From: Sphingomonas hengshuiensis
GTDB lineage: Bacteria > Pseudomonadota > Alphaproteobacteria > Sphingomonadales > Sphingomonadaceae
Assembly: GCF_000935025.1 (NCBI RefSeq)
Contig: NZ_CP010836.1
Location: forward strand, 1,984,001 to 2,048,000
Direction: 5' to 3'
Length of the DNA: 64,000 bases
Shown here in pieces: positions 6,354 to 12,915 of this stretch; the first letter of the stretch is position 1, and every line of letters starts with the position of its first letter. The position numbers and the translations under genes are program-made. The notes beneath the pieces were generated by a model. It worked only from the letters and a program-made list of their open reading frames with translations, did not search any database and was not told the DNA's origin.

Positions 6354-9098
<2,745 letters not shown>

Positions 9099-9213
9099 GG
9101 GGAATTCCTGTCGTATCTTGAATGGGTTTCGGGCAGGCGCGCCTTCACGGCCGGCGCCCGCAGCGTGCGGTATGCGAAGAAGGGCGCGACCGGAGTTCAG
9201 GCCGCGCGGGGGC

Positions 9214-9474
9214 TCACTCGAGCCGACGCTCGAACGGCAGGCGCTGCGCGACCAGCGCCGCGAAATCGCGTACCAGCGGGAGGTTTGCATCGGGCCGGAA
9301 CGCCGCAGCCGCGATCGCCGCAGGCAGCGCGCGGCGCGCGGGCAACACCGCCGCCTGCGCCCGTTCCGCCGCACGGACCACCGCCACGCCCTGAACCTGA
9401 CGCACCCCGCCCTCGCCCGCACCGACACCGGTGAGGCTGGCGAAAAACGCAGTCAGGAGGAGCAGCAGTTCCAA
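9214..9474 (-). CDS. small secreted or periplasmic protein, hypothetical
   Basis: An 86-residue protein starting [23 protein letters not shown], a plausible cleavable signal peptide or membrane anchor. An Ala/Arg-rich part with a [22 protein letters not shown] end follows. It lies upstream of secA on the same strand, 115 bases away, and codon use is like its neighbours. I do not recognise a family. The antisense frames are also open, as is usual at this GC content, so its reality is likely but not certain. Confidence 0.55.
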
Positions 9475-12508: not shown

Positions 12509-12630
12509 GGGTATCGCTAGCCGGCACGGAAACTGCCGGTCAGCCCAGCCCACAAAGATGCTTGAACTCCGCCCGTTTCATGGCAGATACGCGCACCGCC
12601 TGTATTGGGCGGCAACTAAAGGAGGCTCAC
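12509..12630 (+). other. argJ to SEC-C gene intergenic region with two hairpins
   Basis: CCGGCA (12521-12526) pairs with TGCCGG (12534-12539) and may help end argJ transcripts, but no T-run follows. CCGCC (12596-12600) pairs with GGCGG (12608-12612) just before the Shine-Dalgarno sequence AGGAGG at 12620-12625. I see no clear promoter by eye. Confidence 0.35.
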
Positions 12631-12879
12631 ATGGCTAACCTTACGCATCGCGACGACCTCCCCTGCTTTCGAGACGACAAGTAAGCGTCGTAGGGGATAC
12701 CCCTCTGAAACCAGAGTAAAGCGCGGCCTGCGCTTCGTGCATGGCGACGTGGAGCTGGTGGAAAAACTCGGTCGCAATGACCCGTGTCCGTGCGGGTCAG
12801 GAAAGAGCTTTCAAGCGCTGCTGCCTAAAATCCGGCCGGTTTCGACGGGCGGGAGCGGCATGACTATTGGCGCGAATAA
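12631..12879 (+). CDS. small SEC-C zinc-binding protein needing three +1 ribosomal frameshifts
   Basis: ATG 12631 has a perfect AGGAGG five bases upstream. The initial frame gives [13 protein letters not shown] and then stops at 12682-12684. Skipping one base after a TTT codon at three places restores a single 81-residue protein. The skipped bases are C12670, C12812 and C12843. The segments are 13 aa, then [42 protein letters not shown] (47 aa), [10 protein letters not shown] (10 aa) and [11 protein letters not shown] (11 aa), stop TAA 12877-12879. The product has a full SEC-C metal site, C-x-C-x8-C-C, like the SecA tail. All shift sites read TTT-C (TGC TTT CGA, AGC TTT CAA, CGG TTT CGA). The fourth Phe codon is TTC and stays in frame. 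Family function is unknown. It may be a pseudogene, but three identical shifts argue for programmed recoding. Confidence 0.8.
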
Positions 12880-12886
12880 TGGACAA

Positions 12887-12915
12887 ACCGGCCCGGACAT
12901 GTTGCCCGGGCCGGT
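12887..12915. terminator. hairpin terminator between convergent genes
   Basis: A 10-bp GC-rich stem, ACCGGCCCGG (12887-12896) with CCGGGCCGGT (12906-12915), has a 9-base loop. It lies between the SEC-C gene and trxA, which face each other. T-runs are weak on both sides. Confidence 0.6.

Follow-up and report, generated by a model that had tools for sequence, protein, structure and literature searches.

The SEC-C gene and its surroundings

The window, which is the whole 64,000-nucleotide stretch of Sphingomonas hengshuiensis DNA analysed here, harbours a short gene at 12631-12879. According to a DNA search, this gene is single-copy in the 5.2-Mb genome. The following features were found at the locus.

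12619..12625, plus strand: Shine-Dalgarno sequence AAGGAGG, 5 nt ahead of the ATG at 12631
12631..12669, plus strand: segment A, zero frame, 13 codons, start ATG at 12631
12667..12670, plus strand: +1 shift site 1, UUU-C then GAG, zero-frame A-site codon CGA
12671..12811, plus strand: segment B, residues 14-60, with the first two metal-site Cys codons at 12785-12787 and 12791-12793
12682..12684, plus strand: zero-frame stop TAA, reached without a shift at site 1, 17 codons after the start
12809..12812, plus strand: +1 shift site 2, UUU-C then AAG, zero-frame A-site codon CAA
12813..12842, plus strand: segment C, residues 61-70, with the last two metal-site Cys codons at 12819-12824
12840..12843, plus strand: +1 shift site 3, UUU-C then GAC, zero-frame A-site codon CGA
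12844..12876, plus strand: segment D, residues 71-81
12877..12879, plus strand: stop TAA of the joined product
12887..12915, no strand: 13-nt inverted repeat between the gene and a facing thioredoxin-like ORF, arms 92% complementary

When TTTC is read as Phe and one base is skipped at three places, 12631-12879 encodes 81 amino acids without an inner stop codon, and the joined product matches Pfam SEC-C (PF02810) with 38.7 bits (cut-off 20.4). The sequence-only reading of this DNA had described an AGGAGG five bases ahead of an ATG, a frame ending after 17 codons, and three TTT-C skips leading to an 81-aa SEC-C protein. This description is confirmed by the AAGGAGG, the ATG, the early TAA and the single open frame up to the final TAA. 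The claim that the second shift splits the metal site also held when the Cys codons were checked, as site 2 separates the first two Cys, in segment B, from the last two, in segment C. Likewise, TTT had been described as marking the shift sites and as rare elsewhere, and TTT-Y accounts for 3 of the 4 Phe codons in the gene versus 6 of 111 in five intact long ORFs of the window (Fisher P = 0.0013).

One flank of the gene contains an ORF that we take to be argJ-like, and the facing ORF on the other flank is presumably thioredoxin-like (trxA). In the relative L030 (L numbers designate loci), Pfam confirmed that a neighbour is a thioredoxin. The inverted repeat at 12887-12915 is perhaps a terminator shared by the gene and the thioredoxin-like ORF; a terminator scan did not flag it. 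A sigma-70 promoter scan found no promoter, in an organism that is probably outside the scope of the scan. About 3 kb from the gene, on the minus strand at 6354-9428, lies an ORF that we take to be SecA-like, with a SEC-C tail of its own. In the whole window TTTC occurs 310 times, with 267.8 expected, and 0 of 100 shuffles reached 310.

Structure prediction of the 81-aa product resulted in a mean pLDDT of 72.7 and a pTM of 0.46, with the best order around the SEC-C part. The best Foldseek match in the PDB was chain C of 9l6b (YchJ, E 0.074), which suggested no new function. PDB sequence matches were confined to the motif part (residues ~40-66), and the KRR-PSET-VKRG region had no PDB sequence match with E < 0.01.

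Conservation and selection within the genus

The genus search (E < 1e-20) revealed the gene in 29 of 295 same-genus genomes, a count that includes the window's own, as do the two that follow. The TTTY rule, reading TTTY as Phe and advancing four bases, results in a clean full protein in all 29 loci. All three sites with equal spacing are present in 26 of the 29.

The selection test used 26 of the 29 loci, leaving out L035, L054 and L055, and was based on the synonymous fraction, that is, the share of single-base codon differences that are synonymous in a given frame. This fraction was 0.87 in the shifted frame of segment B versus 0.09 and 0.06 in the other frames, 0.86 versus 0.14 and 0.21 in segment C, and 0.92 (first 8 codons) versus 0.04 and 0.24 in segment D. 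Segment A, with 0.48 (last 8 codons) versus 0.11 and 0.35, was weaker than the later segments. Judging from these codon differences, segments B to D are under purifying selection in the shifted frame in the 26 loci.

The sites themselves also differ from control ORFs, which, like the neighbour ORFs used below, were called mechanically. The Pro codon at site 1 is CCC or CCT in 26 of 26 loci and CCG in none, versus CCG in 128 of 227 cases in control ORFs (P = 3e-9), and AGA precedes site 2 in 11 of 26 same-genus loci versus 0 of 319 Arg codons in control ORFs. A constraint at the nucleotide level, beyond that on the protein, evidently exists at the shift sites. RNAalifold could not detect conserved RNA structure around the sites in the 26 same-genus sequences (z -1.6 to +1.0). 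An RNA-structure stimulator is not known to be a requirement of every +1 site.

Relatives in other phyla

A scan of named genomes provided further relatives, of which the best 80 of 576 were taken, giving a sample ranked by likeness to the query. Viral contigs provided more, as did searches of the class and the phylum, with the gene in 3 of 289 and 6 of 398 genomes, respectively; both figures count the window genome itself. L056 and L101 (no core located), L018-L026 (short SEC-C matches) and L140-L146 (short SEC-C pieces of other proteins, scores 112-135) were left out. The relatives were aligned with a frameshift-aware script. In a frame-neutral test, the start codon with the best Shine-Dalgarno (SD) match 33-80 nt upstream of the core was taken in any frame and the sequence was decoded from there.

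An SD start was present for 111 of the 119 distinct cores, own included, and absent for 8. Ordinary decoding from these starts led to a full product in 0 of 111 loci and the rule "UUU-Y is Phe, advance four" in 94; the most that any of the other 121 single-codon rules achieved was 7. Related rules resulted in full products in 44 (TTTC alone), 25 (TTTT alone), 80 (TTTN) and 0 (TTCN) of the 111. The rule products with known lineage belong to seven phyla, and three have no lineage on record. The sequence-only reading had proposed a search for relatives that are split at TTT-C as well, and such relatives were found, with all three sites at equal spacing in the 26 same-genus loci mentioned above and TTT-Y sites in these 94 of 111.

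Three shifts are present in 71 of the 94 products, two in 17 and four in 6. Site 1 is used in 94 of 94, always within the first 20 residues, while site 2 is used in 44, site 3 in 78 and site 4 in 47. On the tree, gain and loss of sites require at least 10 state changes for site 2, at least 7 for site 3 and at least 13 for site 4. The product gains only some two residues from site 4, whose presence may be accidental in a share of the loci. In the 94 products the shifts number 271, all at UUU-Y (151 TTTC, 120 TTTT), as the rule itself dictates. The aligner, considering Phe codons before residue 78 in 110 distinct loci, placed 178 shifts after TTT-pyrimidine, none after the 208 TTC codons and none after the 38 TTT-purine codons.

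Based on comparison of sequences, the window gene is very probably functional and belongs to a widespread family of SEC-C proteins, small and basic, that obligately depend on serial +1 programmed frameshifting. Comparison lends strong support to recoding, through the conserved need for shifts, purifying selection that is specific to the frame, and one common rule, UUU-Y. Beyond what the first reading had noticed, the whole family shares the feature, as many as four sites occur in relatives, and some relatives are linked to RNA repair and tRNA arrays.

The family is represented in mobile and viral DNA. Matches were present in 7 phage and 76 plasmid records, with most of the query covered in only 1 and 2 of them, respectively, and one of each was examined. 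The plasmid relative L167 is decayed, with an inner stop codon, a lost Cys and a broken rule. It lies on a Candidatus Manganitrophus plasmid (L167:4745-12049, CP114562.1), where an integrase gene is found on one side and SIR2, ATP-binding, NYN and N-6 methylase genes on the other, with the look of a defence island. L138, on a 532,729-base IMG/VR contig, and L137 are family members on viral-classed contigs, with 5 and 12 tRNA genes nearby, respectively. In L138, one shift would have to occur at residue 23, which is unusual.

A pseudogene, or base-calling errors in TT runs with TTC as the true sequence at each site, would also lead to a broken frame: one extra T in a GC-rich TTC codon could make each site, and a truly decayed relative, L167, does exist. 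However, every one of the 29 same-genus loci and 94 of 111 testable loci, from seven phyla, have the gene split between frames. In segments B-D, codons that differ by a single base are synonymous in the shifted frame in 86-92% of cases, and many of the shifts are TTT-TGA, in which the extra base forms a stop codon. Since the split frame is common to the 29 same-genus loci and selection is frame-specific, a pseudogene or a general assembly error is excluded. We regard this explanation, which retains hardly any probability, as already refuted by the conservation and selection tests.

The segments may instead be separate short peptides made by reinitiation or from internal starts, with no fused protein. 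Consistent with this, 9 of the 112 loci with TTT-Y at site 1 have a core-frame start codon whose SD match reaches 4 nt or more, and in many planctomycete relatives an ATG follows soon after site 1 (FExM). Nevertheless, 100 of these 112 loci have a zero-frame start that passes the same SD threshold, segments C and D have just 10 and 11 codons, and in the window gene site 2 divides the metal ligands between B and C. Moreover, the CTT-TGA that three loci have at site 3 is easier to reconcile with shifting than with reinitiation. We consider separate peptides very improbable, and a fused, frameshifted product remains the preferred reading.

Among the best 120 of 1452 relatives in the protein database, 65 proteins stop exactly at the third site and 30 enter the wrong frame after the second. 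As its database proteins are cut short or out of frame, the family is hidden by ordinary annotation.

Exceptions to the UUU-Y rule

The strict TTTY rule fails in 17 of the 111 testable loci, among which we found CTT or ATT at a site, an inner stop codon, or absence of the product end. CTT-TGA, a site of the RF2 type, is present at site 3 in L063, L077 and L114, and all three fail the strict rule. ATT-C is present at site 1 in L077, L123 and L150, and in the acidobacterial loci L106, L112 and L125 the aligner places a shift at CTT-Y near the metal site. L132 and L136 also break the rule. In L073, L088 and L090, TTT-C stays in frame at residue 22-23, therefore a UUU-Y does not always lead to a shift.

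After non-TTT codons the aligner placed 33 shifts, one of which, in L100, follows TTC at residue 78. Many of the 33 are probably misplacements beside a TTT-Y. Conversely, 17 TTT-Y were tabulated as unshifted, including 11 at residue 12, one at residue 69, two misplacements (L129, L133) and three real cases at residue 23. The 12 at residues 12 and 69 are in T runs, with the shift placed elsewhere by the aligner or two shifts back to back. In T7-C runs, one -1 shift leads to the same frame as two +1 shifts, so that such loci are ambiguous. Two shifts inside the first 22 residues, as in T runs, are present in 7 of the rule products. Of 61 loci, 6 use TTT for the in-frame Phe-23, three of these shifted, versus 358 of 779 Phe codons before a pyrimidine in neighbouring ORFs (P = 5e-9); to judge from this comparison, TTT is avoided at the in-frame Phe-23. 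The 6 TTT-Y codons of the five ordinary window ORFs are in frame, and TTTY reading is therefore not a genome-wide code.

Instead of slippage of tRNA-Phe, the cause could be a special tRNA that reads UUUY as a quadruplet, or an mRNA that has lost a base. The strict four-base rule succeeds in 94 of 111 loci, and two shifts inside the first 22 residues, as in 7 products, would agree with it. However, ARAGORN could not detect a UUUY-reading anticodon beside the gene in the window and 120 scanned loci (the single four-base anticodon that it named, gctg in L104, cannot read UUUY), and the ordinary window ORFs have their TTT-Y codons in frame. The CTT and ATT sites and the in-frame TTT-CC exceptions likewise oppose a strict four-base code, and we consider this explanation very improbable in comparison with slippage of tRNA-Phe.

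Probable mechanism of the shift

At each site, tRNA-Phe, whose anticodon is GAA, would occupy UUU in the P site, with the A site usually presenting one of the slow codons CGA, CAA, UGA or UAG. With the A site slow, tRNA-Phe would re-pair one base forward, from UUU to UUC or UUU, and reading would continue in the +1 frame. The window gene would need three such shifts, and its relatives two to four.

The zero-frame A-site codon at site 1 is CGA in 55 and TGA in 15 of 101 shifts, with 22 more TTT in T runs. At site 2 it is CAA in 41 of 44, at site 3 TGA in 39 and CGA in 38 of 78, and at site 4 TAG in 29 of 48. In the five control ORFs of the window, CGA accounts for 9 of 319 Arg codons and CAA for 7 of 105 Gln codons; CGA and CAA are probably slow at the A site, judged by this rarity. 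Slow CGA or CAA codons in the A site had been suggested from the sequence alone. The part concerning the codons stands, as they are mostly CGA, UGA and CAA, and the slowness is deduced from their rarity.

The slippage of tRNA-Phe from UUU to UUY, proposed in the same reading, agrees with two reports. UUU_Ynn is called there especially prone to +1 shifting in bacteria (PMC5009743), and peptidyl-tRNA-Phe is reported to have shifted at UUU-CAA when Gln-tRNA was low (PMC3617221). That shifting takes place on the ribosome rather than at the level of RNA is our inference, as is any statement on how often it occurs. Synthesis of the tRNA modification ms2i6A37 depends on Fe-S clusters, according to passages of PMC3980101, and this iron-responsive modification is a less likely trigger. 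The CTT and ATT sites make a signal acting through Phe only less likely.

RNA-repair genes and tRNA arrays near the relatives

Iterative profile search revealed RNA-repair-type ORFs in the flanks of 20 of 88 loci, or 15 of 88 when only RtcB, PrfH, RlaP, Thg1 or RNA ligase are considered, both counts having no matched control set. An RtcB-family gene and prfH adjoin the relatives in L061, L102 and L152 (NCBIfam), the RtcB piece of L152 being partial and under the cut-off. Other RtcB-like neighbours were found in L057, L058, L127, L064 and L078, which brings RtcB to 8 loci overall (tblastn). Further neighbours include RlaP, Thg1, RNA ligase, AAA_33 kinase, NIF-type phosphatase and beta-CASP nucleases. 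Among these, RlaP, Thg1 with AAA_33 kinase, and RNA ligase with NIF-type phosphatase are recurring sets, present in L064, L082, L085, L088, L096, L073, L093, L107, L109, L086, L114 and L131. In two Massilia loci (L057:2062-2934 and L058:1953-2900), a protein of 290-315 aa with no Pfam match, 57% alike between the two, is encoded between the RtcB-like gene and the recoded gene.

At least three tRNA genes were present in 13 of 82 loci and a tRNA within 400 nt in 18 of 82, again with no matched control set. tRNA genes in arrays of up to 26 adjoin the gene in L062, L066, L074, L076, L077, L087, L095, L113 and L132, nearly all of them planctomycete. In L062, L066, L087, L095, L113 and L132, the nearest tRNA before the gene is tRNA-Arg(gcg) and the nearest after it tRNA-Cys(gca). 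At L104:670-742, where sister loci have tRNA-Cys, ARAGORN predicted a tRNA with the four-base anticodon gctg. L062 (3666-5228) and L066 share a 520-aa protein near the gene with no Pfam or NCBIfam match, whose C-terminus is perhaps von Willebrand A-like.

Within the genus, RtcB is present in 17 of 29 genomes with the gene versus 68 of 266 without it (P = 4e-4, kinship ignored). No RtcB match was found in the window's own genome, and no RtcB or PrfH seed match at the same-genus loci. tRNA genes were found in 0 of the 29 same-genus loci (flanks up to ~1.5 kb), and within the window tRNAs occur only at distances of 9.7 kb and 48 kb from the gene. The window gene itself has no RNA-repair neighbour or tRNA array, and the linkage is present only in a minority of the relatives.

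As described in PMC9223846, from which the name RtcB2 is taken, RtcB2-PrfH protects against a toxin cutting 16S rRNA in the decoding centre. According to PMC7790460, an RNA-repair operon is switched on by broken tRNAs, and PMC6514570 places zinc-ribbon and charged proteins of unknown function near prfH. Based on the first two reports and the repair and tRNA contexts of the relatives, gating on A-site failure is therefore proposed. The serial sites would act as a multiplicative gate, so that the protein is made only when many ribosomes stall with an A site that is empty or damaged, and it would help the damage response. The gate could be triggered by cleavage of tRNA, by cuts in the decoding centre, or by the loss of Arg tRNA, Gln tRNA or a release factor. 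Once made, the SEC-C protein would work with RNA repair or backup tRNA sets. We propose this tentatively, giving it rather less than an even chance.

The serial +1 frameshifting may also be real but constitutive, with no sensing and with sites accumulating neutrally in a tolerant gene. Sites 2-4 come and go on the tree, the window gene is without repair and tRNA context, and neutral frameshift sites have been argued for Euplotes (PMC10235951). On the other hand, site 1 is present in 94 of 94 products, the in-frame Phe-23 avoids TTT, and the repair and tRNA-array contexts of the relatives suggest a damage theme. Constitutive shifting is a serious possibility, only a little short of an even chance.

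Comparison with known systems

To our knowledge, known bacterial programmed frameshift genes use one site, and YecA, YchJ and SecA are read without frameshifts. prfB, encoding RF2, possesses one shift site (CUU-UGA), near its start. Similar to the SEC-C family, prfB depends on a +1 slip of the P-site tRNA while the A site contains a stop codon or a slowly read one. The slip is needed for the full product and conserved across phyla, and the prfB site type CTT-TGA recurs at site 3 of L063, L077 and L114. Unlike prfB, the SEC-C family has 2-4 sites in ~80 codons, mostly UUU-Y, in an unrelated protein.

Bacterial frameshifting at UUU-pyrimidine, as presented in PMC5009743 and PMC3617221, involves the same tetranucleotide and P-site tRNA-Phe, and UUU-CAA is identical to site 2 of the window gene. 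However, these precedents are mostly an error or a mutant phenotype, whereas the sites of the SEC-C gene are conserved and required. The influenza PA-X site UCC_UUU_CGU (PMC3498833) is similar in its +1 shift at UUU-C with the Arg codon CGN in the A site, but belongs to a virus, uses the eukaryotic ribosome and a single site, and leads to an extra product. Frequent +1 frameshifting in cellular genes is shared with Euplotes (PMC5011710, PMC10235951). Nonetheless, Euplotes is a ciliate in which it is genome-wide, while here it concerns one bacterial gene family, at sites with or without a stop codon.

The Cys motif of YecA, YchJ and the SecA tail (PMC8076867) is the same as in the window SEC-C protein. 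Relatives in L061, L102 and L152 adjoin an RtcB-family gene and prfH, as in the ribosome-repair operon RtcB2-PrfH (PMC9223846, PMC6514570), whereas the window genome is without an RtcB match. Neither SEC-C nor frameshift occurs in the main texts of these two papers, and SEC-C has 0 occurrences in the main text of the GeneTack survey (PMC3711429). In the open-licence literature, no report of frameshifting in a SEC-C gene was found; what came up instead was a method for aligning coding sequences and work on Euplotes.

Present in seven phyla and needing 2-4 shifts in ~80 codons, this would be the most recoding-dense bacterial gene family known to us. Its serial sites would be a natural design for testing P-site slippage. 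The links to RNA repair and tRNA arrays raise the testable question of whether starvation-type frameshifting may serve as a signal of translation damage.
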